Below, in pieces: positions 581 to 44,615 of a DNA stretch of 60,590 bases (the first letter of the stretch is position 1; every line of letters starts with the position of its first letter). A program made the position numbers and the translations under genes. The stretch is from a bacterium (GTDB lineage: Bacteria; Myxococcota_A; UBA9160; SZUA-336), in NCBI GenBank assembly GCA_024226335.1, contig JAAELY010000269.1, forward strand, positions 1 through 60,590, read 5' to 3'. Below the pieces are notes generated by a model. The model did not search any database. It saw only the letters and a program-made list of their open reading frames with translations, and was not told the DNA's origin.

Positions 581-3034
581 TCAGGATTTCAATTCGAACG
601 AGGCACGAGCCCGGATGTCCCGGGACGAGCGACCCACGCGAACCTCGAACGCTCCCGGCTCTGCCACCCAGCCTGCGGTCGTCACGTCGAAGAACGAGAA
701 CGCTCGAGGACCGAGTTGGAGACTCAGGGTGCGGCTCTCGCCAGCGCGCAATAAGAGCTTCTCGAATGCTCGAAGCTCCTGTTCGGGTCGTGCAATACTC
801 GCCTCGGGGTCGCTGACGTAGACCTGAACGACCTCCTGCGCAACGCGGGAACCGGTATTGCGCACGTCGACACGCACTTCGATGCCATCACCCGGACCGA
901 TTTCTCTCGCACTGAGAGACATTCGATCGTACTCGAAAGAACCGTAGGAGAGCCCATGACCGAATGGGAACAGGGGTTCGACATCCTTCGTATCGTAGTA
1001 GCGATAGCCTACGAAAACGCCTTCGCCGTAGAAGACCTGCCCCTTCTCACCGGGGTAGTTGATGAAGGCCGGATTGTCCTCGAGCCGTTTTGGCAGGCTC
1101 AAGGGAAGGCGGCCGCCCGCATCCCGGTCACCGACCAGGACTTCGGCGAGTGCGTTGCCCAGTTCCTGCCCCGGATACCAGATCTGCAATACCGCGGGCA
1201 CCTTCGAGAGCCATTCCATGCGCAGTGGTGAGCCTGCGTTCAAGACGACGATCGTGCGGGGATTCGCCGCCGCAATCCGCTCGATCAGTTCCACCTGTCG
1301 ACCCGGCAATTCCATGTCGAGGCGATCGCGCCCTTCAGACTCCCAATCGGGATTCAGGCCAACGACGACGATCGCGACGTCCGCCCGATCCGCAGCGGCG
1401 ACAGCGCGCTCCATCAGGTCTTCTGGAACCGGCAGAAGCAGCCCCGCGCGCAGACCCGCGATAACGGGCGCGTCTTGCCGACTGTAGTCGATCTGCACGT
1501 CGTAACTCTGGCCCTGCTTCAGTTTGACACTGGCACTCACCTCGATGGTGCCCGCACCGAAGAAGCTCTCACCGCGCGTTTGCTGCGTCCAGTTGTCGAC
1601 CACCAGTTCGCCGTCGACGAGAATCCGGGTCTTCCCCGCACTGGTCAGGCTAAAAGTGTGCGCTCCGCTCTCGGGCGCGACCAGCGTTCCGGTGATGCGA
1701 GCAGAGAACGCAGACGGTTCGACACCCTTGGCAACTTCCCCGAACCAGGTCAGTTCAGCTTCGCTCATATTCGTAACGAACGCCGGATCACCTTCGAGTT
1801 CCGTGTTGTTGAAGTACTCGACCCGCAGTCCGGCTTCGCCTTCTGAGTGCGAGAGGTATCGATTGTCGAGTGCCGGTGTGAGCTTGTGGTTCGTACAGCC
1901 TGGCTCGTGCAGGATCTCGAGATCCGGCAATCGATCGCGAATGCCCTCGAGCGCCGATACGCGGTAGTGCGCCTTGACCTGGGCACTTCCGCCACCATGC
2001 ACGACCGCGACATCTGCATTCGGACCGATCACGGCCACACGCTGGAGTTTCTGAGGATCCAGCGGCAGTACCGCGGTGTCGTTCTTGAGCAGCACGAAGG
2101 ACTCGGCCGCGGCTTCACGCGCCAGTTCTCGGTGTTCCGGTCGATCGATCGCCTGCTCGGGCTTCTCTTCGGGATCCTCGAACACGCCAACACGATCGCG
2201 CAGCAGCAATAGCCGCCGCACTTTCTGGTCAATCGTTGCCTCTGTGACTTCTCCGCTGCGAATGGCTTCGAGTAGCTTGTCACCGTAGTGCCGAGCTGGT
2301 CCCGGCATCTCCAGATCAAGACCACCGTTCGCGCAGCCAGCGCTGCTATTGCTGCCGAACCAGTCGGAGATCACAAATCCATCGAATCCCCACTCATCGC
2401 GCAACACCGTGTTGAGCAGACGATCGTGCTCGCTGGCCCAGGTACCGTTGATCTTGTTGTACGCCGACATGATGCCCCAGGCTTCGGCCTCGCAGACCGC
2501 AGCCTCGAACGGAGGCAAGTAGATTTCCCGCAGGGCTCGTTCACCTACTTCAGAACTGATCGTGTGGCGCTCGAACTCGGAATCGTTGGCGACGTAGTGC
2601 TTGACTGTGGTTCCGATACCCTGTGATTGGACTCCCTGGACGAAGCGCACAGCGAGTCGCGCGCTGAGATACGGGTCCTCCGAATAACACTCGAAGTTTC
2701 GACCGGCCAGGGGTGAGCGTTGGATGTTCACAGTGGGCGCCAACAACACGTGTGCGGATTTGGTGCGCGTCTCTTCGGCCAGTGCGACGCCGACCCGCTC
2801 GAGCAGATCCGGGTTCCAGGTAGCACCCAACGCCGAGCCGCAGGGGAAGCACGCGGAGGTCATAGCGCCGCGAAACGCTCCGCCGCGCGCGCCGTTGGGA
2901 CCGTCGGTCACCTTGATGGGCGGAATTCCGAGTCGTTCGACCCCGGGTGCGTGCCACATATCTGACCCCGCGAGCATTTCGACCTTCTCGTCGAGGCTCA
3001 TCTCCGCCAACCACTGCTCAATCCTGGCTTCCAT
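581..3034 (-). CDS. GH3 beta-glucosidase with PA14 insert
   Basis: A glycoside hydrolase family 3 enzyme of about 817 residues that removes beta-linked terminal sugars, most often glucose, by a retaining mechanism. Visible parts are the N-terminal TIM barrel with KVTDGPNG and KHYVANDSE, the nucleophile Asp near residue 222 in GFVISDWFGS, an inserted PA14 domain at about residues 390-530 (GLRVEYFNN to VDNWTQQ), the alpha/beta sandwich and a C-terminal fibronectin III-like domain. No signal peptide is seen, so it probably acts in the cytoplasm. I place the start at the ATG at 3034 because AGGAGG sits 4 bases upstream; an in-frame GTG at 3049 would put that ribosome binding site inside the gene. 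It is divergent from the TetR gene, 98 bases away. Confidence 0.92.
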   Translation of the reverse strand: MEARIEQWLAEMSLDEKVEMLAGSDMWHAPGVERLGIPPIKVTDGPNGARGGAFRGAMTSACFPCGSALGATWNPDLLERVGVALAEETRTKSAHVLLAPTVNIQRSPLAGRNFECYSEDPYLSARLAVRFVQGVQSQGIGTTVKHYVANDSEFERHTISSEVGERALREIYLPPFEAAVCEAEAWGIMSAYNKINGTWASEHDRLLNTVLRDEWGFDGFVISDWFGSNSSAGCANGGLDLEMPGPARHYGDKLLEAIRSGEVTEATIDQKVRRLLLLRDRVGVFEDPEEKPEQAIDRPEHRELAREAAAESFVLLKNDTAVLPLDPQKLQRVAVIGPNADVAVVHGGGSAQVKAHYRVSALEGIRDRLPDLEILHEPGCTNHKLTPALDNRYLSHSEGEAGLRVEYFNNTELEGDPAFVTNMSEAELTWFGEVAKGVEPSAFSARITGTLVAPESGAHTFSLTSAGKTRILVDGELVVDNWTQQTRGESFFGAGTIEVSASVKLKQGQSYDVQIDYSRQDAPVIAGLRAGLLLPVPEDLMERAVAAADRADVAIVVVGLNPDWESEGRDRLDMELPGRQVELIERIAAANPRTIVVLNAGSPLRMEWLSKVPAVLQIWYPGQELGNALAEVLVGDRDAGGRLPLSLPKRLEDNPAFINYPGEKGQVFYGEGVFVGYRYYDTKDVEPLFPFGHGLSYGSFEYDRMSLSAREIGPGDGIEVRVDVRNTGSRVAQEVVQVYVSDPEASIARPEQELRAFEKLLLRAGESRTLSLQLGPRAFSFFDVTTAGWVAEPGAFEVRVGRSSRDIRARASFELKS

Positions 3035-3096
3035 CTGTCCTCCTGACACCCTTGATACAGGGTCCCGACCATCTTACAGCCCACACGCGAACGGGT

Positions 3097-3132: not shown

Positions 3133-3801
3133 ATGATTGCCCCGGCCGTCCTCAGTCCGCGAGCGACGCGAACTCGCACCGCGATCCTGGAAGCCGCAGA
3201 AGAGCTATTTGCGGCCAGGGGCCTGGCCGAGGCAAGGCTCGAAGACGTGGCTCTCGCCGTCGGAATTCGCCGCGCATCGATCATCTACTACTTCAAGGAC
3301 AAGGCGCAACTCTACGATGCCGTTCTCGGGAATGCGCTCGGCGACCTGTTCAGGCAGATCGAGAAAGCGCTCTCCGGTGAAGACGATTTGCGGGTTCGTA
3401 TGGAGAACGCAATCGCCGTCTGGACCGATTACATCGCCGGGCGACCGACTGCGGCTCGGCTTCTACTGCGTGAAATGGTGGGCGCCACCCCCGACCAGCC
3501 CCCGCGAATGCTGCGACACCTGCAACCTTTCCTGGAGATGTTCAGAAAGGTCGCCTCCGAGCATCGCGGCCCACGAGTGGTTTCCGACACCCTCTCTCCG
3601 ATCCACTTCGCGAGCGCAATCGCGGGAACCACGCTCTTCATGGTAGGCGCCCTTCCCGCCCTTCATCCCGATCTGGATTTCAATCCGCTCGAACCCGAAC
3701 AGTTGAAAGCGCAACGCGAAGTCGTTCTGCGCATTGCCAGTCGTCTTCTGGAGAGTCGTCAAGATGGCTCGAACGATCCCGCTTCCGGGATACGAACGTG
3801 A
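3133..3801 (+). CDS. TetR/AcrR family transcriptional regulator
   Basis: A 222-residue regulator. Residues about 14-60 form the TetR helix-turn-helix: AILEAAEELFAARG, then LEDVALAVGIRRASIIYYF, then KDKAQLYDAV. The remaining 160 residues are the helical ligand-binding and dimerisation domain, with the ligand unknown. Its stop codon overlaps the GTG start of the fusion gene (GTGA at 3798-3801), so the two are one transcriptional unit. The 22-bp palindrome 8 bases upstream is the likely operator. The most economical reading is that it represses itself and the fusion gene until a sugar-derived or aglycone ligand appears. Control of the divergent GH3 gene from the same site is possible but not required by the sequence. 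Confidence 0.9.
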   Translation: MIAPAVLSPRATRTRTAILEAAEELFAARGLAEARLEDVALAVGIRRASIIYYFKDKAQLYDAVLGNALGDLFRQIEKALSGEDDLRVRMENAIAVWTDYIAGRPTAARLLLREMVGATPDQPPRMLRHLQPFLEMFRKVASEHRGPRVVSDTLSPIHFASAIAGTTLFMVGALPALHPDLDFNPLEPEQLKAQREVVLRIASRLLESRQDGSNDPASGIRT

Positions 3802-6800
3802 AGCGCGATTACCTGATCGGACTCGACGCGGCCAGCACGAACGGCCACTGCGTTCTGGTAGACACTTCTGGTGAGACGATCGCGAGCGCAACGCGCAACT
3901 GGACGCCTGCACCCACCCCGAACTCCGCCAGCATGGGATTCGACCTGGACCTGGAGCTTATCTGGGAACAGTTCGGAGGAATGGTGCGCGAAGTCGTCGC
4001 GCGCGCCGCTGCAACCCCTGACCAGATCGTGGCGATCGCACCGACGGGCCAGGGCGAGTCACTGGTACTGCTGGATGCGGAGGGCCTCCCGCTGCTCGCG
4101 GTCCCGAGCCTCGACGTGCGCGCTATGGCCGAAGGTCTTCAACTCGCCGCAGCACGAGGAGACGAGCTTTTCCAGCGGGTCGGACGACGACCCATGCCGG
4201 TATTCGCGGGTCCTCGCATGGCCTGGTTCGCTCAGAGTCAACCCGCATTATGGAAGCGAGCAAGTACCTGGCTTTCGTTGTCGGATTGGCTCGTATACAG
4301 GATGTGTGGTGCGCGACTGACGGAACCATCGCAAGCGGGCGGAAGCTTGCTGATGAACCTGAAGACTCGCGACTGGGCCTGGGATATCGCCGAAGATCTC
4401 GGAATTCGAAGCAACCTGTTCCCCGATCTGGCTCGCTCCGGACAACATGCGGGCGTTCTCAGTAACGACGCTGCGAGGACACTCGGATTGCGGGCCGGAA
4501 TACCCGTCGCGGTCGGCGGCAACGCCATACAGTGCGGACTTCTCGGTTGTGGTGCGGTCTCACCCGACGACATCGCTGCGATCATCGGTGTCACGGGATC
4601 CGTTCAACAGGTCGTCAACCAGCCACTCTGTGACGCCGAAGGACGTATGTGGAGCGGCCATCACGTCATAGATGGAATGTGGGTACTCGAGAGCAATGCG
4701 GGCCTGGTCGGCAGCACACTCGAAGATCTCGGGCGCCTGATGTTCCCGGATAGCGCGATCGGCGCAGCCCGCCTGCTCGCCCTCGCAGGCGAATCGGTCC
4801 CGGGCGCCCACGGAGTATTGTCGACGCTCGGTTCCGGGGTCATGGATGCGCGCACGTTCGATCTGCCACTGGGCAATATCACGATGAGCGAACTGCCCGA
4901 TGTCGGTTCCGAGAATCGCCGCTCCGATCTTGCTCGCGCCATCGCAGAGGGACTCGCCTACGGAGTCCGTGCCAATATTGCCCAGGTACAGGCCGCGACG
5001 GGCAATGCCCAACCTCTCGTCCGGCTGGCCGGTGGCCTATCGCGCAGCAGGACCTGGTGTCAGATCCTTGCAGATGTTCTCAACGCCGAGGTCCAGGTGT
5101 GCGCCGTACCGGAAGCATCGGCACTCGGTGCTGCGATCTGCGCGGGCGTCGGAGCAGGCGTATTCCCGGACCTGAGTGAAGGAGCACAGGCGCTCAGCCG
5201 GATCGGCCGCAGTCACGCACCCGTTCCCGAAAACGCCTCCCGTTACTCCCACCTCTATGGGACCTGGGGCTTGCTGCAGGAGGAGCGCGCCTCGGCCGAT
5301 CGAATCGTGCGCTCGGTGACCCTGCAGGAGATCATGAGCAACGATCCAGGCCAGAGGCAGAGAGCCCCCTCGGAGACACGCCCACGCATCCTCGTTACCG
5401 CAGAACTCGACGAGAACGCGCTCGAGCAATTGCGCGCACTCGGCGATGTCGAGTACGCGAGCTACCGAGATGAACGCAGGCTTCTGATTGGGCCCGCACT
5501 GGTCAGGACGCTGCGCGGATTCGATATCTTCGTCACCCAGGTCGATGTCATCGACGTGGAAGCCCTGCATCAGCTTCCCGACCTCAGGGCGATCGTCGCG
5601 TGTCGCAACGACACGGTCAATATCGATGTCGAAGCTTGCAGCGCCCTCGGCATACCGGTGCTCTATGCGCCCGGGCGCAACGCAGATGCCGTCGCCGACC
5701 TGACGATTGCATTCCTGCTCATGCTATCGCGCCGGCTTCTGGAAGCCAACGCATTTCTGCGTCAACCCAATGGAGACGAGGGAGACATGGCTCGCATGGG
5801 TCATGCGTTTCGGAGCCTGCGGGGGCACGAGTTGTGGCGACAGACGGTCGGACTGATTGGCCTGGGTGCCGTTGGCCGAGCCGTCGCGAAACGTCTGGCG
5901 GGTTTCGGCTGCCGAGTGCTCGCATACGATCCGGAGATCTCACCTGAAGCGATTCTGCGCGGAGGAGGAGAACCGACGAACCTGCACGACCTGCTTCGCG
6001 AAAGCGATTTCGTGAGCCTGCACGCCGAGCTCACGAGCAGTTCTCGAGGCCTGCTGGATGAGGAACGGATCGCGCAGATGAAACCCGGCGCTTGCCTCAT
6101 CAACACGGCGCGCGGTGCACTCATCGACGAAGAAGCTCTCTACGATGCTTTGCGCAGCGGGGCGCTCGGCGGAGCAGCCCTCGATGCGTTCAGCGTGGAA
6201 CCGCCGGGCACCGATCACCCCTTGCTTCAACTTCCCAATGTCGTCGCCACACCCCACGTCGGAGGCAATACCTACGAAGTGGCCATGCATCAGAGCGAGA
6301 TCGTGGCCAGAGAGCTCGACTGCCTGCTCCGACGGGAGCGCCCGAGAGACATCGTGAATCCCGAAGTCCTGGACGGCTTCGATTTAGACGGCGACCGCCA
6401 CTCTCTAAGCGAGCAGGAATATCTGAAGCTGGCAGCCCGACCCGCTCCCACGATGTCGGACCTGGCGCAGCCTGCGAAAGCGCGGATTCACCGATCCGCG
6501 CCGCGCTCCGGTGCTCCAACCAGGACCCGCAACGCGATGCGGATCGCGCTTGAGAAGTTCGTGGCGGGTATGAGTTCAGACTCCGAAGTTCGAAGCTTTT
6601 CCGTCGACCAGGATTCGACCTTGATGTTCGTCATGGACGATCTCGATCTGGCTTTCTGGATCGCATTCAGGCACGGCTCGGTCAGTGGAGGCATAGGCGA
6701 ACCCCCAACAGGAGCAGACGTCTGTCTGCGTACGACTGCGGAAATGCTCGATGGTGTTCTGAGCAGACGCATCGACGGGGCCGAGATGGCCATGGAAGGA

Positions 6801-7595
6801 CGTCTGAGCATCTCCGGTGACGCGGTCAAAGCGATGGCGCTTCAACACCTGCGAGGCGAACTCAAACGCAACTACCTCGCCGCGCGCGCGGATTCGCCAG
6901 ATCCTGGAGACCTTTTCCTGACGACCGGAAGCGCGAGTCCTCACGGATCCAGAGGCTCAACCGACGGCAGCGCCGAGCGCTCAGCCATCGCAGAGATCGC
7001 CGAGGATCTGTTCTCGCAACGGCTGATCAGCGCAACCGGTGGCAATCTGAGTGTCCGTGATCCCGAACGCGATGCGATCTGGATCACCGCGAACCAGCCA
7101 CTCAAGAGCACAATCGAAACAGACTCCGTCGTTGCCCTCGATCTCGCGGGCCGAGTACTCGATCTCGATGCGCCTCCTCCTTCGAGCGAATACCCGATGC
7201 ACTGCGCAGTCTATCGCGCACTACCCGACGCGGGAGCCGTGATCCACAGCCACGCGCCAAACGCGACCGTCCTCGCAAACGCCGGGCTGCCATTCCTTCC
7301 GATCTCGACCGAGGCCGCCCAGTTCGACGACATCCCGCGCATTCCGTTCATCATGTCGGACTCCGAGAAGCTCGCAGAAGCCATCGCCGAAGCGATGCGC
7401 GATTGCCCTGCCCTGCTGATGCAGAATCACGGCCTTCTGGTCGCTGGCCGGACGCTGCGCCAGGCCGCGGACTTGATTGGAATCATCGAACACACCTGCG
7501 AAGTCATCCTGGGCGGATACGCGGTCGGAAAACCGCCAGCCGTTCTGCCAGAAGAGGTGCTCGCAACGCTACGCAAAACGAGAGTCGTCGTGTAA
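3798..7595 (+). CDS. Four-domain fusion: FGGY kinase, D-hydroxyacid dehydrogenase, SCP2-like, class II aldolase
   Basis: One 1265-residue frame with no internal stop. Residues about 1-500 are an FGGY carbohydrate kinase closest by eye to LsrK/fuculokinase, with a standard C-terminal nucleotide-site segment (LAGGLSRSRTWCQILADV, EASALGAA). However, the usual catalytic Asp of the GGGD motif is replaced: the sequence reads GGNAIQCG near residue 241. Residues about 528-860 are a D-2-hydroxyacid dehydrogenase with GLGAVGRA, Arg in NTARGAL, Glu in FSVEPP and His in TPHVGGN. Residues about 910-1030 resemble an SCP2 lipid-binding domain. Residues about 1060-1265 are a class II aldolase with all zinc ligands expected from FucA: Glu in SSEYPMH, both His in HSHAPN and His in QNHGLL. 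Probable role: processing of a ketose and its C2/C3 product. Substrate unknown. Confidence 0.85.
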   Translation: MKRDYLIGLDAASTNGHCVLVDTSGETIASATRNWTPAPTPNSASMGFDLDLELIWEQFGGMVREVVARAAATPDQIVAIAPTGQGESLVLLDAEGLPLLAVPSLDVRAMAEGLQLAAARGDELFQRVGRRPMPVFAGPRMAWFAQSQPALWKRASTWLSLSDWLVYRMCGARLTEPSQAGGSLLMNLKTRDWAWDIAEDLGIRSNLFPDLARSGQHAGVLSNDAARTLGLRAGIPVAVGGNAIQCGLLGCGAVSPDDIAAIIGVTGSVQQVVNQPLCDAEGRMWSGHHVIDGMWVLESNAGLVGSTLEDLGRLMFPDSAIGAARLLALAGESVPGAHGVLSTLGSGVMDARTFDLPLGNITMSELPDVGSENRRSDLARAIAEGLAYGVRANIAQVQAATGNAQPLVRLAGGLSRSRTWCQILADVLNAEVQVCAVPEASALGAAICAGVGAGVFPDLSEGAQALSRIGRSHAPVPENASRYSHLYGTWGLLQEERASADRIVRSVTLQEIMSNDPGQRQRAPSETRPRILVTAELDENALEQLRALGDVEYASYRDERRLLIGPALVRTLRGFDIFVTQVDVIDVEALHQLPDLRAIVACRNDTVNIDVEACSALGIPVLYAPGRNADAVADLTIAFLLMLSRRLLEANAFLRQPNGDEGDMARMGHAFRSLRGHELWRQTVGLIGLGAVGRAVAKRLAGFGCRVLAYDPEISPEAILRGGGEPTNLHDLLRESDFVSLHAELTSSSRGLLDEERIAQMKPGACLINTARGALIDEEALYDALRSGALGGAALDAFSVEPPGTDHPLLQLPNVVATPHVGGNTYEVAMHQSEIVARELDCLLRRERPRDIVNPEVLDGFDLDGDRHSLSEQEYLKLAARPAPTMSDLAQPAKARIHRSAPRSGAPTRTRNAMRIALEKFVAGMSSDSEVRSFSVDQDSTLMFVMDDLDLAFWIAFRHGSVSGGIGEPPTGADVCLRTTAEMLDGVLSRRIDGAEMAMEGRLSISGDAVKAMALQHLRGELKRNYLAARADSPDPGDLFLTTGSASPHGSRGSTDGSAERSAIAEIAEDLFSQRLISATGGNLSVRDPERDAIWITANQPLKSTIETDSVVALDLAGRVLDLDAPPPSSEYPMHCAVYRALPDAGAVIHSHAPNATVLANAGLPFLPISTEAAQFDDIPRIPFIMSDSEKLAEAIAEAMRDCPALLMQNHGLLVAGRTLRQAADLIGIIEHTCEVILGGYAVGKPPAVLPEEVLATLRKTRVVV

Positions 7596-8990: not shown

Positions 8991-10367
8991 GTGTCGACAA
9001 CGGCTCTAGAAAACGCGAACAAGGGCTCGGCCCAGGCGAGTGGTGCCGGAGGCCTGCGCGAGGTCGCCCTGCTCGCCTACCCAGTCATCCTGAACCAGAT
9101 GTCCCTGACCGCGATGGGAGTCGTCGACACCGCGATGGTCGGGCGTCTCGGCGCAACCGAACTAGCCGCAGTAGGCCTGGGCGGACTCTGGCTGTGGACG
9201 ACTCTGAGTTTTTTCCTGGGCACCTCGAGTGCGGTTCAGACCTTCGTCTCACAGGCAGACGGTGCCGGGGATCGCGATGCCCCCGGCTTCTGGAGCTGGC
9301 AGGCGTTGTACAGCCTCGTGCCACTGACGCTTCTCGCGATCTCGATCTTCTACGCGATCGCACCATGGCTGATGGCTCAACTCGGACCTTCGATCGGGAT
9401 GCAGGAGATCGCGGTCTCCTATATGCGACCGCGAATGTTCGGAGCTGGAGCCGTCACGGCGACCATGATCATGGCATCGTTCTTCCGAGGCCTGGGCGAC
9501 ACACGCACGCCGCTGTTCGCGACCCTGATCGCCAACGGGTGTAATGCAGTTCTCGACTACGGATTGATCTTCGGAGAGCTCGGCCTGCCCGAATGGGGCG
9601 CCGCCGGTGCGGGCGCAGCCACGGGAATCGCCGAATGGATCGGCTTCGCCTACCTGCTGATCGCTTTTCGCGGAAAGAACCTGTGCCAACGCCATCCGAC
9701 TCATGCCGTCGGGCTGTCGGTCCCTCATGTCCGTCGCCTGCTGCGAACGGGTCTGCCGATCGGCGGCCAGTGGGTCATGGGCATGCTGGCCTTCTCGGTC
9801 TTCTCGACGGTGATCGCACGCATGGGGGATGTGCAGATGGCGGCCAGCCAGGCCTTCATCGTTCTCTTGTCGCTTTCGTTCATGCAGGCCATCGGCATCT
9901 CATCGGCCGCATCGACGCTCGTCGGTCGCTACATCGGCGCCAAGGACTTCGAGGCGGCGCGGCGAAGCTTCCGCTCGGCGCAAAAACTGGCCGTACTGCT
10001 AGGAGGAATCCTCGCGGTCCTTTTCGTGTGCGCACCCGAGTTGCTCCTGCGGATCTTCATCAGCGACACCGAGGTCTTGATGCTGGGCGTGCCTCTGGTC
10101 TTGCTGGGCGCGACTTTTCAGTTCTTCGATTGTTTCGGCATCGTCGCGAGTGGATCGCTGCGCGGAGCCGGTGACACGAGTTGGCCGTTCTGGATGCAAG
10201 CCGCCCTGGAGTGGGGCCTGTTCCTGCCGATCGCCTGGTTGTTCGGTATCTGGCTCGATGGGGGCCTGTTCGGCGCATGGCTGGGCGGGACGATCTACGT
10301 GATCATCCTCGCCGGCGTGCTCGTCGCGCGTTTCCTTTCCGGTGCCTGGGAGACCATCGAGATCTGA
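8991..10367 (+). CDS. MATE family efflux transporter
   Basis: A 458-residue multidrug and toxin extrusion protein, an inner-membrane antiporter that expels cationic or hydrophobic compounds using an ion gradient. It shows about twelve hydrophobic segments in two homologous halves: MGVVDTAMVGRLGATELAAVGLG in the first half and GDVQMAASQAFIVLLSLSFM in the second, with the family signature FFRGLGDTRTPL / GSLRGAGDTSWPF repeated in each half. The GTG start is supported by AGGAG 7 bases upstream. Substrate unknown. It stands alone and is convergent with the hotdog gene. Confidence 0.93.
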   Translation: MSTTALENANKGSAQASGAGGLREVALLAYPVILNQMSLTAMGVVDTAMVGRLGATELAAVGLGGLWLWTTLSFFLGTSSAVQTFVSQADGAGDRDAPGFWSWQALYSLVPLTLLAISIFYAIAPWLMAQLGPSIGMQEIAVSYMRPRMFGAGAVTATMIMASFFRGLGDTRTPLFATLIANGCNAVLDYGLIFGELGLPEWGAAGAGAATGIAEWIGFAYLLIAFRGKNLCQRHPTHAVGLSVPHVRRLLRTGLPIGGQWVMGMLAFSVFSTVIARMGDVQMAASQAFIVLLSLSFMQAIGISSAASTLVGRYIGAKDFEAARRSFRSAQKLAVLLGGILAVLFVCAPELLLRIFISDTEVLMLGVPLVLLGATFQFFDCFGIVASGSLRGAGDTSWPFWMQAALEWGLFLPIAWLFGIWLDGGLFGAWLGGTIYVIILAGVLVARFLSGAWETIEI

Positions 10368-10398
10368 CTCAGAAGTCCCGGCGGGTTGCGGAGTTCCG

Positions 10399-11136
10399 CT
10401 ATGAGTTGGCCGCTGGAACCGCCTGACGGCCGGCGATCGAAATCCAGGTCGCGCGCGCCCGCGCGATGCACTCGCCGGTCGCGCGATGCAGCGCACAACC
10501 GGCAAAACCGCGGCGGCCTTCGAAAGCAATCTTCCAGGCCGAAACCACCAGTCGCTCGCCGATGCTCGCCTGCCCGCTCACTTCCACCGCCAGGCGGCCC
10601 AGCACCAGTGGTTCCAGAACCTTCGACGCCTCGTCCTCGAGCAGCGGGAATGCGCTGGTGCAATCGAGTGCAGCCCATAGAAACGCTTTGTCGACGAAAC
10701 CGTCGTCGCCGCCCAGAGACGTGTCCGGAATCCAGGGTGCCGCGGCGATCGAATCGACCATGCCCGGGTACACGCACAGGCCATCCCCCGGATGACGCCT
10801 GGGGCCGCAGACGAAACACTCGGGAAACGGATGGGTCTGAAAAGCGCGGCAACTTCCCTGTACGGCGAGCGCAGCTTCGAAATCGGGGGTCGGGGGAACC
10901 TCCAGTTCGAGTTCGCAGGGACAGACCGTCGCAAGATCGCGACCTCCGTCGCGCAACGCGAATCCCCCATCCTCGATTGCGCCAATTTCGAGCGCCCTGC
11001 CCAATGGAACCGGTGCCCGCAGTGTGACCTCCGCCGTTCCCCCGACATAACGCGCAAGTCGACCGGCCACATAACCACCGTTGCCTGTTTCGGGTGGCCC
11101 GCAGAAGCGAGGATCGATACTCAGGCGGTGGCTCAA
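10399..11136 (-). CDS. Hotdog-fold thioesterase-like protein, TTG start
   Basis: About 245 residues when started at the TTG at 11136. It resembles a conserved double-hotdog, thioesterase-like family: GPPETGNGGYVAGRLARY near the start, HPFPECFVCGPRR in the middle and VWAALDCTSAF-like residues (FLWAALDCTSAFPLL) later. The predicted role is acyl-CoA or acyl-ACP hydrolysis, from fold only. The open frame extends to 11244, but that extension is Arg-rich and overlaps the HAD gene by over 100 bases. The TTG overlaps the HAD stop as TTGA, which gives the standard short overlap of this genome. Translation is probably coupled to the HAD gene. Confidence 0.7.
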   Translation of the reverse strand: MSHRLSIDPRFCGPPETGNGGYVAGRLARYVGGTAEVTLRAPVPLGRALEIGAIEDGGFALRDGGRDLATVCPCELELEVPPTPDFEAALAVQGSCRAFQTHPFPECFVCGPRRHPGDGLCVYPGMVDSIAAAPWIPDTSLGGDDGFVDKAFLWAALDCTSAFPLLEDEASKVLEPLVLGRLAVEVSGQASIGERLVVSAWKIAFEGRRGFAGCALHRATGECIARARATWISIAGRQAVPAANS

Positions 11137-11789
11137 GCCCGAGCCACCGACCAGTTTTCGAGCGCACCGGGCAGAGCGGCGAGGTCGCGAAGACACAGAT
11201 CGGCACGCGCGGCCTCGGGGCGTCGAACGTGCGCGTACCCCCACGGTCCCCGCACCAGAAAGACCGACATCAACCCCGCCTCTGCTGCGGGAAGCACGTC
11301 ATTGTCGAGTCGGTCCCCGACGTAGGCGATCTCTCCGGCAGAGAAACCGGCGAACTCCACGATGCGCGCGAAGAATTCAGCCGACGGCTTTTCCACTCCC
11401 CAACTGCCCGAACTGGCAATCCCATCGATCTGCAGGCCCAAGAACGCCTGGCTGTGTTCGGCATGCGCCGGTTGGTTTCCCGCGACACCGATCCAAAAGC
11501 CGCGCTGCTTCAACTCAAGTATGCAATCGACGGCGTCGGGATACAGATCGTCGGCCCTATGCTCGTCGACGTGACCGGCCGCAGCCCGGCGCTTCTTCTC
11601 CAATTCAATATCCACTTCGGGACACAGGATCTCGAACACCCGTCGATGGTGTTCACCGCGATCGGCCGCCTGCCCGAGAACGCTGAAGAAGGTCAGATGG
11701 GAAATCCCGAGCCAGTCCGCCCAGCCCGCCCAGTAGCGGGTCTCGTCCACCAATGTCTCCCCTACGTCGAATACAACCGCTCGCACCAT
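11133..11789 (-). CDS. HAD-superfamily hydrolase
   Basis: A haloacid dehalogenase-like protein of 218 residues. Motif I is VVFDVGETLVDETRY: the nucleophile Asp is present, but the second Asp of the usual DxD is Gly, which weakens a phosphatase assignment. Motif II/III (GVAGNQPAHAE and KPSAEFFARIVE) and motif IV (IAYVGDRLDNDVLPAAEAGL) are intact. I start it at the ATG at 11789, since the longer frame opens with an unrelated TTG-led stretch. It overlaps the hotdog gene by TTGA. Substrate unknown. Confidence 0.85.
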   Translation of the reverse strand: MVRAVVFDVGETLVDETRYWAGWADWLGISHLTFFSVLGQAADRGEHHRRVFEILCPEVDIELEKKRRAAAGHVDEHRADDLYPDAVDCILELKQRGFWIGVAGNQPAHAEHSQAFLGLQIDGIASSGSWGVEKPSAEFFARIVEFAGFSAGEIAYVGDRLDNDVLPAAEAGLMSVFLVRGPWGYAHVRRPEAARADLCLRDLAALPGALENWSVARA

Positions 11790-12016
11790 GGCGCGCAGTC
11801 TCGTGTTCCTGCCCCAAGCTGGCAAGCGCCCGGCCAGGAACTCGACCCAGGACCGCGTTCGCTAGTTCAGAGTGGCCGTTTACGAGGGTGAAAATTCCAG
11901 AAAAAATCAGAAAAATCTCAACTGCCCGATTTCACTGACTGGGCGTTCAGGTGCTTGCTGAACATTCACAACCTCCCCAGAACGGCGCAGACCGAGTTAG
12001 GCGAACAAACGAGGGG

Positions 12017-12103
12017 ATGAGCAGCGACGGCATGCGACGATTCACCACATTGCGCGGGTTCTCGCCTTCACGCGGCAGTTTCACCATATTGCGCCCTGAG
12101 TGA
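12017..12103 (+). CDS. Possible 28-residue ORF with internal repeat
   Basis: The ATG is directly preceded by GAGGGG, with almost no spacing. The peptide contains RRFTTLRG and later GSFTILRP, which are encoded by the imperfect direct repeat and lie 13 codons apart in frame. It is upstream of the two hairpins. This could be a leader peptide, a small protein or chance. Confidence 0.2.
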   Translation: MSSDGMRRFTTLRGFSPSRGSFTILRPE

Positions 12104-12162
12104 CGACCCTGCTAAATTGGTGTCTCTTCCCTTCCAAGAGAAGCAGACATAGGCCAAGAGAA

Positions 12163-12241
12163 CTGCTCTCAGGATTATCCCTTCCGGAGAGCAGGCAAAT
12201 TGACACGGCAGCGTTTCCCGCGCTGTCGTGTCTTGCATTTT
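12163..12241 (+). terminator. Two adjacent hairpins, second one terminator-like
   Basis: Hairpin 1: CTGCTCTC (12163-12170) pairs with GAGAGCAG (12187-12194). Hairpin 2: GACACGGCAGCG (12202-12213) pairs with CGCTGTCGTGTC (12221-12232) with one G-T wobble, followed by TTGCATTTT. The T-rich tail favours plus-strand termination. In addition CCTGCT at 12109 could pair with AGCAGG at 12190, giving an alternative fold. That is suggestive of a structured small RNA. Confidence 0.45.
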
Positions 12242-12316
12242 GGGGCCCTGTCCAATTCCCGCGGTCCGGGCGCCGCACCCCCCGGATTCCCCCAGCGGAG
12301 ACGGCCGTGACCAGCT

Positions 12317-12823
12317 TCAGACGGCAAGCCGCAGGCGGTAGTAGTACTCGACAGAAGCGCTCAGATCCCCCAGTTCGCGCGTCTCGGAACCGCGCGAAAA
12401 GCCTCGCCGCTCGTAGAAATGATGGGCCGTTTCGAAGCGTGTGTCGCTCCACAGGTCGACGAATTCCGCTCCCCGGCGAGTCGCTTCACGCTCGATTAGC
12501 GAGCACAACTCCGAGCCCAGGCCTCTCTTGCGCTGTGCATCGGCGACGTAGAGCTTGCGCAACTCGATGCCGGAGACGGCCTGCGCAGGAAGCCAGCCGA
12601 CACTCCCCACGACGCTGCGCTGCGCGTCTTCTGCGATCCAGAACTCGCCCCCACCTCGTTTGAAGTGCGTGGCGATCTCGAGTAGTTCGGGCGCTTCGTT
12701 TTCGACGTCGAGTACACATCCCGGGTACTCGTCGAAGACCGCACGAATCAAGGAGATGAGGCCGGGACCGTCCTCATCCCGCGCCGCTCGTACGTTCACT
12801 GCATCGGACACAGGAAAGAGCAT
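12317..12823 (-). CDS. GNAT-family N-acetyltransferase
   Basis: A 168-residue acetyltransferase. The acetyl-CoA binding motif A is clear: LRKLYVADAQRKRGLGSEL, followed by a helix and YERRGFSRGSE, the usual motif B. GNAT enzymes of this length acetylate small amines or protein N-termini; the substrate cannot be told. It is transcribed away from the CAP-domain gene's start region, on the same strand and 30 bases downstream of that gene's stop, so it may be its operon partner. Confidence 0.88.
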   Translation of the reverse strand: MLFPVSDAVNVRAARDEDGPGLISLIRAVFDEYPGCVLDVENEAPELLEIATHFKRGGGEFWIAEDAQRSVVGSVGWLPAQAVSGIELRKLYVADAQRKRGLGSELCSLIEREATRRGAEFVDLWSDTRFETAHHFYERRGFSRGSETRELGDLSASVEYYYRLRLAV

Positions 12824-42047: not shown

Positions 42048-42822
42048 GAGAGCGCACGAACCCGCTCGCAGAAGCGATCGCCTCGGCGCGATCCTTCGCA
42101 GCCGCAATTCGACTCACCAGCGCACTACCGACGATCACTCCATCGCACATACGAGCGACATCGACAGCATGCTCGGGCGTCGAGATCCCGAAGCCCACGC
42201 AGACGGGCGCGTCCGTCACCCGTCGGACCTTGGCGACGAGATGCGCGAGGTCGGGCGGCAGTTCGTTGCGCGCACCGGTCACACCCGTGGTCGACACGCA
42301 ATACACGAAGCCGCGACTCAGCGACGCGATCTGCACGACTCGCTCGGGCGTGCTGGTCGGTGCGATCAACAGGATGCGATGCACGTCCTTCGCCTCGCAA
42401 GCGCGGCTCAGATCGGCACCCTCCTCGTGAGGCGCATCCACGATGATCAGTCCGTCGATCCCGGAAGCCGCGCACTCCGCCACTGTCTGGTCCTCTCCGC
42501 GGGCCAGCACATTGTTCAGGTAACCCATCGCGACAAGCGGTACGTCGGTGAGTTTGCGCACGCGCGCGCACATCGCCAGGACGCCCGCCAGAGTCGTGCC
42601 CGCAGCGACCGCACGCGCCGAGGACGCCTGGATGGTCGGCCCCTCCGCAATCGGGTCGCTATGAGGGACGCCGAGTTCGACTATATCAGCGCCGGCGGCG
42701 GCGAGTTCGGGGATCAACTCTTCTGTGGTCTCGAGATCCGGATCACCGGCCGTCACGAAGACGATCAGTGCCGCGCGATTTTCGGCCCGGGTCCGCTCGA
42801 ACACGGCATCGATGCGATTCAT
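42016..42822 (-). CDS. trpA: Tryptophan synthase alpha chain
   Basis: 268 residues. It cleaves indole-3-glycerol phosphate and passes indole to TrpB. Catalytic Glu and Asp are in [21 protein letters not shown]; the loop [11 protein letters not shown] and [10 protein letters not shown] bind the phosphate. The ATG at 42822 overlaps the stop of the trpF::trpB gene. It is last in the operon, and its 3' end overlaps convergent coaE. Confidence 0.96.
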
Positions 42823-44615
42823 CGGCGCTTCTCCAGCAGCAGGCGAGCTTCGGCTACGTCTTTGTCCCCGCGTCCGCACAGGTTTACGATCACGAGGGTG
42901 TCCTCGCCGTAGTCCGCCGCGCGTTTGCGCAACTCAGCGATCGCATGCGACGGCTCGAAGGCGGGAATGATGCCCTCCTTCTGCGATAAGTAGACGAAAG
43001 CGTCGAGTGCCTCGTCGTCGGTCGCAGCGGAATAGATGGCGCGACCTGAATCCTTGTACAACGAGTGCTCCGGACCCACGCCCGGGTAGTCCAGACCCGC
43101 CGAGATGGAATGTGCGGGAAAGACCTGGCCGGAGTCATCCTGAAGCAGATAGGACATGCTTCCGTGCAGGACTCCGGGGCTTCCCGCCGTAAGCGGTGCG
43201 CTATGCCGCCCCTTCTGCATGCCCTCACCAGCCGCTTCGACGCCGATCATCTTCACGCCCTCATCGCCAAAGAACGGATGGAAAAGCCCGATTGCGTTAC
43301 TGCCTCCGCCCACACAGGCGTACAGGTAATCGGGCAAGCGCCCTTCTGCCGCCAGAATCTGTTCACGCGCCTCCTGTCCGATGATCGCCTGAAGATCTCG
43401 AACCAGAAGCGGGTACGGGTGAGGTCCAGCAGCGGACCCGATCAGATAGTAGGTGTCGAGTACATTCGTAGCCCAGTCACGCAGGGCTTCACTCATCGCG
43501 TCCTTGAGCGTGCGTGTGCCCGACGTGACCGCGTGGACCTTGGCCCCGAGCAATTCCATGCGGAATACATTCAGGGCCTGCCGACGCGTGTCTTCTTCAC
43601 CCATGAAGACTTCACATTGCAGGCCGTAGCGCGCGCACGCAGTCGCAGTTGCCACACCGTGCTGACCGGCACCCGTCTCCGCGATGATGCGCGTCTTGCC
43701 CATACGCTTTGCAATCAGCGCCTGGCCAATCGCGTTATTGATCTTGTGCGCGCCGGTGTGGGCAAGTTCGTCGCGTTTGAAATAGACCCGGCAACCGAGG
43801 TCCTCGCTGATACGCCGCGCGAAGTACAACGGCGTGGGTCGTCCGACGTATTCCTTGCGCTCGGCGGCGAGTTCTTGCCAGAAGCTCGGATCTTCGCGCA
43901 ACGCTTCGTACGCGTCGGTCAACTGCTCCGTAGCCGGGACCAGGGTCTCTGGCACATAGCGCCCGCCGAAGATTCCGAAATAGCCGCGCGGATCCGGACG
44001 ATCGCGTTCGGACTCGACGGAGTGCGCTAGCGCGACGAACTCCCGGACGGCTTTCCGGTCCTTGCGGCCCGGAGCCGACTCGAGTCGCGACGAAGCATCG
44101 ACACCGTGCGGCAGGGCGCTTCTCGCCGCGTCCTCGACGTTGTCCGCGGCGAGTCCTCCTGCGATCCAGACTCGCCGGCCCCTGGATTCCAACGAACGCG
44201 CCCGCGTGTAATCCCAGGATTCACCACTCCCTCCCCCGGAGGGATGATCGAGCATCAGGTCGATGCGCGGGTAGCGATCGGCGAGCTCCTCGACACCGTC
44301 CTGCGCCGCGAGCACCTTGATGACCGGAAACGGAAGCTTCCCCACGTAATCTGGCGACTCATCGCCGTGCAGTTGCACCACGTCGAGGCCCACTTCTTCG
44401 ACCAGCTCGGCCACTCGTTCGACGGGCGCATCCTGAAACACGCCGACACGCACGACACGACCCGCGACCGCTGCACTGATCGCGCGTGCGGTCTCGAGAT
44501 CCAGTGCGCGAGGCGTACCGTCCACGAAGTTCAAGCCGATCGCGTCAACTCCGGCTTCGACCGCAGCTTGGGCGTCCTCCACTCGGGTAATTCCGCAGAC
44601 CTTGACCTGGATCAT
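42819..44615 (-). CDS. trpFB: TrpF-TrpB fusion: PRA isomerase and tryptophan synthase beta
   Basis: One 598-residue frame. Residues 1-200 are phosphoribosylanthranilate isomerase with the catalytic Cys in [11 protein letters not shown] and Asp in [18 protein letters not shown] short linker ([13 protein letters not shown]) leads to tryptophan synthase beta at about residues 210-598: [14 protein letters not shown], the PLP lysine in [25 protein letters not shown] and [10 protein letters not shown]. Both halves keep their catalytic residues. Each catalyses one step of tryptophan synthesis, separated by TrpC. It starts at ATGA, overlapping trpC. Confidence 0.95.

Follow-up and report, generated by a model that had tools for sequence, protein, structure and literature searches.

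A conserved four-part bacterial fusion of FGGY kinase, 2-hydroxyacid dehydrogenase, SCP2-like and class II aldolase parts: a possible role in lipid-tail processing

Introduction

Several described enzymes resemble single pieces of the protein reported here. The autoinducer-2 kinase LsrK is a stand-alone FGGY kinase, while class II aldolases such as the L-fuculose- and ribulose-1-phosphate aldolases cut sugar phosphates. In bifunctional rhamnulose-1-phosphate aldolase/dehydrogenases of the RhaEW type, a class II aldolase is fused to a short-chain dehydrogenase (SDR), and neither a kinase nor an SCP2 part is present, unlike in the fusion studied here. SCP2-like parts joined to a catalytic part occur in sec-alkylsulfatase (PDB 4av7) and likewise in MFE-2 and SCP-x. 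Steroid side-chain enzymes (Ltp2-ChsH2 DUF35, Sal-Shy and CasG) have homologues that adjoin the fusion gene in relatives without being part of the fusion; in the papers searched, no link of these enzymes to FGGY kinases was found.

The window analysed is a stretch of 60,590 nucleotides (contig JAAELY010000269.1, assembly GCA_024226335.1) from a bacterium of the Myxococcota_A. It encodes a protein built of parts from known families in an undescribed four-part combination: no described protein with this architecture was found in the open-licence papers searched, which agrees with the novelty of domain order put forward in the initial annotation.

Results and Discussion

A single frame encodes four enzyme and binding parts

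The fusion gene is a frame of 1265 codons, all open, and its GTG start shares four bases (GTGA, 3798-3801) with the stop of a TetR-family gene. The features of the locus are listed below.

3133..3801, + strand: TetR-family regulator, 222 aa (PF00440 TetR_N, 5e-12), with a four-base overlap with the fusion start
3798..7595, + strand: four-part fusion protein, 1265 aa, GTG start
3798..5297, + strand: FGGY carbohydrate-kinase part, residues 1-500 (PF00370, PF02782; PDB 5ya0, E 3.8e-65)
4524..4526, + strand: codon GCC, Ala243, at the FGGY catalytic Asp position (family alignment, LsrK alignment, DNA)
5379..6377, + strand: D-2-hydroxyacid dehydrogenase part, residues 528-860 (PF00389, PF02826)
6621..6851, + strand: SCP2-like lipid-binding part, residues 942-1018 (PF02036, 3e-6; PDB 4av7, E 7e-4)
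6984..7508, + strand: class II aldolase part, residues 1063-1237 (PF00596, 1.9e-45; PDB 6btd, 4.4e-21)

The initial annotation had claimed four parts in this order within one frame and had proposed an hmmscan-type check. Pfam matched every part above its gathering score and in the order claimed: FGGY_N (residues 5-250, 3.6e-37) and FGGY_C (366-452, 4.6e-18), 2-Hacid_dh (531-854, 3.1e-12) and 2-Hacid_dh_C (637-822, 1.9e-55), SCP2 (942-1018, 27.9 bits against a cut-off of 21.3) and Aldolase_II (1063-1237). Among the best 25 NCBIfam models matched, none spans more than one part of the fusion.

The dehydrogenase part carries a complete NAD-binding motif (GLGAVG at about residues 688-693, plus D711), and the Arg, Glu and His claimed at first are R603, E801 and H820, invariant in the family alignment. 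All of these are common to D-3-phosphoglycerate dehydrogenase and glyoxylate reductase, from which the part differs in being fused and in scoring below all equivalog cut-offs.

Similarly, the aldolase zinc and catalytic residues that had been claimed are present and conserved, the catalytic Glu and the three zinc His being E1131, H1150, H1152 and H1211, so that all metal ligands are kept. With the L-fuculose-/ribulose-1-phosphate aldolases, to which its PDB match, fuculose-phosphate aldolase 6btd, belongs, the part has in common the fold, the zinc ligands, the catalytic Glu and two motifs characteristic of sugar-phosphate aldolases, TGGN and SSE. Retention of these two motifs would make sense of a kinase on the same chain. 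Scores against the corresponding equivalogs are nevertheless far below cut-off (NF053831, 102.7 against 300; NF005302, 98.7 against 264; overall about 100-114 bits of 264-300), and the TPSG of these aldolases is replaced by TPSQLFKGDL in the fusion family and by TANQPLKSTI in the window. A Ser of the fusion aldolase aligns with what we take to be the proton donor of FucA, Tyr113. Elsewhere, L040 (8824-10534, - strand) has an aldolase gene of its own, which overlaps an enoyl-CoA hydratase-like gene and whose product shares 63% identity with the corresponding part of the L052 fusion.

SCP2 was matched in 21/23 family members, with a best value of 8e-14, and the two exceptions are short forms ending before SCP2; a chance match was thereby ruled out. 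Alkyl_sulf_C was matched in 15 of the 23. The joining of a catalytic part to an SCP2-like part is as in the alkylsulfatase, yet the catalytic parts of the SCP2-containing lipid enzymes (alkylsulfatase, MFE-2, SCP-x) are unrelated to those of the fusion. Single-sequence structure models of window pieces gave pLDDT values of 48 and 36 and were too poor for use.

Ala replaces the FGGY catalytic Asp in the window copy

LsrK, the nearest solved relative, aligns with the whole length of the kinase part and shares MR and DAR-type motifs with the fusion orthologues, yet scores against the LsrK equivalog NF008187, whose cut-off is 528, are 272-275 bits (272.3 for the window protein). The family motif GG-x-D-TQ reads GGNAIQ in the window copy, which places Ala243 at the position of the catalytic Asp. 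This Asp is kept in all 31 other family kinases covering the site, the window copy being the sole exception, and LsrK also has it. The site is the equivalent of SePSK D221. The SePSK mutants D8A, T11A and D221A were much less active with D-ribulose, and the same paper reports this effect for the matching residues of xylulose kinase and glycerol kinase from E. coli (PMC4880283). Within the DxGT phosphate loop that contains SePSK D8 and T11, D10 is kept; at position 13 the window copy has Ser, and most of the family has Gly. The ATP-site GG motif is retained. Since three neighbouring residues differ at GGNAIQ, a single sequencing error is unlikely.

The window copy has thus probably lost the ability to phosphorylate, and its annotation as an active kinase should be avoided. 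As the DxGT Thr is missing from the whole family, the orthologue kinases could be weak too, and their activity is putative. With Ala in place of the catalytic Asp, the window protein is probably not a complete one-polypeptide pathway. The ketose pathway on one polypeptide, as it had been proposed, is not supported for this protein: the kinase lacks its Asp, the neighbourhood described below points to lipid, and a 2-hydroxyacid dehydrogenase is not a classical step of ketose breakdown.

The fusion recurs in related genomes

Orthologues with the same fusion had been named as support to look for, and about twenty genomes from the class of the window organism contain the four-part protein, with 43-51% identity over nearly the whole length. 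Typical orthologues lie at 8313-12137 in L023 and at 8016-11849 in L052. A strong match of some form is present in 27/91 genomes of the class and in one genome of another class of the same phylum. The window genome is in draft form, in 556 contigs, which would leave room for separate genes joined by the assembly or for a frame open by chance, but the recurrence of the four-part frame in about twenty independent genomes, including the single-contig assembly G347, rules out such a join and makes this explanation negligible.

Shorter forms exist without aldolase (L031, L034, L060) or with kinase and dehydrogenase only, lacking both SCP2 and aldolase (L033, L061). They nest within the clade of fused forms in a dehydrogenase tree, which suggests loss of parts. 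In L038 (G008:C39) the match is interrupted by stops, and its kinase and dehydrogenase parts do not share a frame; this copy is probably broken.

Unfused kinase genes were found in L066, L067 and L068. L066 (about 9100-12450) and L070 (1-2829, - strand) hold separate adjoining genes for class II aldolase, 2-hydroxyacid dehydrogenase and LsrK-like kinase; both sets are without SCP2, and the L066 set has an SDR-like gene alongside. At about 31-33% identity, a Streptomyces atratus plasmid carries unfused FGGY kinase, 2-hydroxyacid dehydrogenase and aldolase next to a regulator with a sugar-binding domain, and Rubrobacter and Halarchaeum plasmids carry unfused kinase and dehydrogenase. The side-by-side occurrence of the trio in L066/L070 and in Streptomyces atratus indicates that the three activities belong together. 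A scan of genome contigs with the single window protein returned one weak aldolase match and nothing else, and a scan of viral contigs with the family alignment returned no match.

Lipid-type genes surround the fusion in relatives

The typical order in several relatives is DUF35 (zf-ChsH2/OB_ChsH2), thiolase-fold protein, TetR, P450, fusion and acyl-CoA ligase; some relatives also carry a second ligase gene upstream. The TetR gene is found at the same place in L023, L024, L028, L034, L052, L053, L054 and L058. The best PDB matches of the thiolase-fold neighbour are Ltp2 (6ok1, 2.3e-59) and a nonspecific lipid-transfer protein (9myr), and its motif is YDGF where TcLtp2 has YDHF and CtSal has YDCY (PMC12329534). 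The ligase downstream of the fusion matches the steroid-24-oyl-CoA synthetase CasG model NF052580 with 664 bits against a cut-off of 750. Among 91 genomes, the top eight ligases, which share 64-100% identity with the query ligase, each sit immediately downstream of a fusion; those ranked next, at 62% identity or below, do not lie beside one. The CasG-like ligase, whose score comes close to the model's cut-off, an Ltp2/Sal-like protein with DUF35, and P450 are co-located in relatives, for example in L058 and L028, and are absent around the window copy.

This operon does not surround every relative, an idea we rejected: many fusions lie elsewhere, those in L026, L029, L056, L057 and L059 having other neighbours, and the module also occurs fusion-free. 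A TetR-P450 pair with a CasG-like ligase nearby and no fusion was seen in L076, L077 and L078 (G024, G329 and G353, one genus), so that the lipid-type module appears older or wider than the fusion. Between P450 and the fusion there was no significant association (10/30 versus 11/61, p 0.12). In the window, TetR is the sole operon neighbour retained; the window genome (G000) has no P450 orthologue at a 1e-60 threshold, and its nearest ligase relative is on another contig.

Possible processing of lipid tails

We tentatively favour a reading in which the family enzymes hold a lipid substrate while phosphorylating, oxidising and cutting its hydroxylated tail. The fusion, its conservation and conserved neighbours, the intact dehydrogenase and aldolase residues and the missing Asp are established; we infer the substrate class, the step order and the use of SCP2 as lipid holder. 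The substrate would be lipid-like, with its hydrophobic body gripped by the SCP2 part. The FGGY kinase part would add phosphate to a hydroxyl of the oxidised or polyol tail, and the NAD-dependent dehydrogenase part would interconvert hydroxyl and keto groups on the tail. A retro-aldol cut by the aldolase part would then give two products, a small fragment bearing the phosphate and an aldehyde. After oxidation, the aldehyde could pass to the CasG-like acyl-CoA synthetase, whose gene follows immediately downstream. The window copy has probably lost the kinase step, and this protein may use dehydrogenase and aldolase only, on a differently supplied substrate, or its old role may be fading.

Retention of SCP2 in nearly all members, the lipid-type operon, the co-location of the ligase, the sugar-phosphate motifs of the aldolase, the unfused trio of L066 and L070 and the L040 aldolase beside its enoyl-CoA hydratase-like neighbour speak for lipid-tail processing; the neighbourhood of lipid-type genes argues for lipid rather than plain sugar catabolism and would explain the presence of SCP2. 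On the other side, relatives of known function among FGGY kinases, 2-hydroxyacid dehydrogenases and class II aldolases have small, hydrophilic substrates. The fusion-free TetR-P450-ligase module and the non-significant P450 association argue against a tight operon link, and the family-wide lack of the DxGT Thr, the short forms without aldolase or SCP2, the varied neighbours and the window copy with TetR only also tell against this reading. The main rival, a close one that we hold to be possible if a little less so, is a small-sugar or sugar-acid pathway: a one-polypeptide route for a free ketose, a sugar acid or an autoinducer-2-like compound, in which SCP2 would serve as spacer, dimerisation part or membrane anchor. 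It fits the best matches of the parts (LsrK, PGDH/glyoxylate reductase, fuculose-/ribulose-1-phosphate aldolase) and the unfused sets lacking SCP2, namely L066/L070 and the FGGY and 2-hydroxyacid dehydrogenase pairs of the Halarchaeum, Rubrobacter and Streptomyces plasmids, of which the Streptomyces set includes an aldolase and the regulator with a sugar-binding domain. It accounts less well for the retention of SCP2, for relatives' neighbours that are of lipid type with no sugar transporter seen among them, and for the co-occurrence of the closest ligase orthologues with the fusion.

As to the window protein itself, the chances are about even that it is a partly dead or re-used copy with an inactive kinase and lost or moved operon partners, mainly the dehydrogenase being under selection. 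Ala243 and the state of the P450 and ligase genes in the window genome agree with this, as do deviations at near-invariant columns, which number 10/68 in FGGY, 5/24 in SCP2 and 24/98 in the aldolase versus 10/113 in the dehydrogenase. The intact 1265-codon frame, the ATP-site GG motif and the full set of aldolase metal ligands weigh against it, and the FGGY end branch is no longer than usual (0.66; median 0.61), so that re-use is as possible as decay. By sequence, the kinase of this copy is nonetheless likelier inactive than active.

If lipid-tail processing is correct, the conserved linkage of a lipid-binding part with the sugar-type chemistry of kinase and aldolase, often within an apparent operon for lipid side chains, suggests an undescribed bacterial removal of hydroxylated lipid tails, and the fusion gene offers a single-gene handle on this hypothesis. 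A narrower version, in which the family trims the tail of polyol lipids such as bacteriohopanetetrol, seems improbable to us. Such a substrate would be chemically coherent: oxidation at C34 and phosphorylation at C35 could be followed by a retro-aldol cut between C33 and C32, giving DHAP and a C32 hopanoid aldehyde, and the side chain of the derived C32 acid would be the same as that of a C24 bile acid, suited to the CasG-like ligase and the Ltp2/Sal-like aldolase. It would then provide an enzymatic source of the C32 hopanoic acids of soils and sediments. Against it, the 2-hydroxyacid dehydrogenase is no obvious polyol dehydrogenase. The hopanoid synthesis gene hpnH did not co-occur with the fusion (9/30 versus 16/61, p 0.80), and neither hpnH nor hopene cyclase was found in the window genome; both results oppose a role in hopanoid synthesis, the lack of hpnH association being neutral on breakdown.

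Two other frames of the window were noted. Upstream of the fusion and on the opposite strand, a large frame (581-3049, - strand) looks like a family 3 beta-glucosidase. Inside a tryptophan operon, a 598-aa frame (42819-44615, - strand) has a TrpF-like start and is long enough for a TrpF-TrpB fusion.
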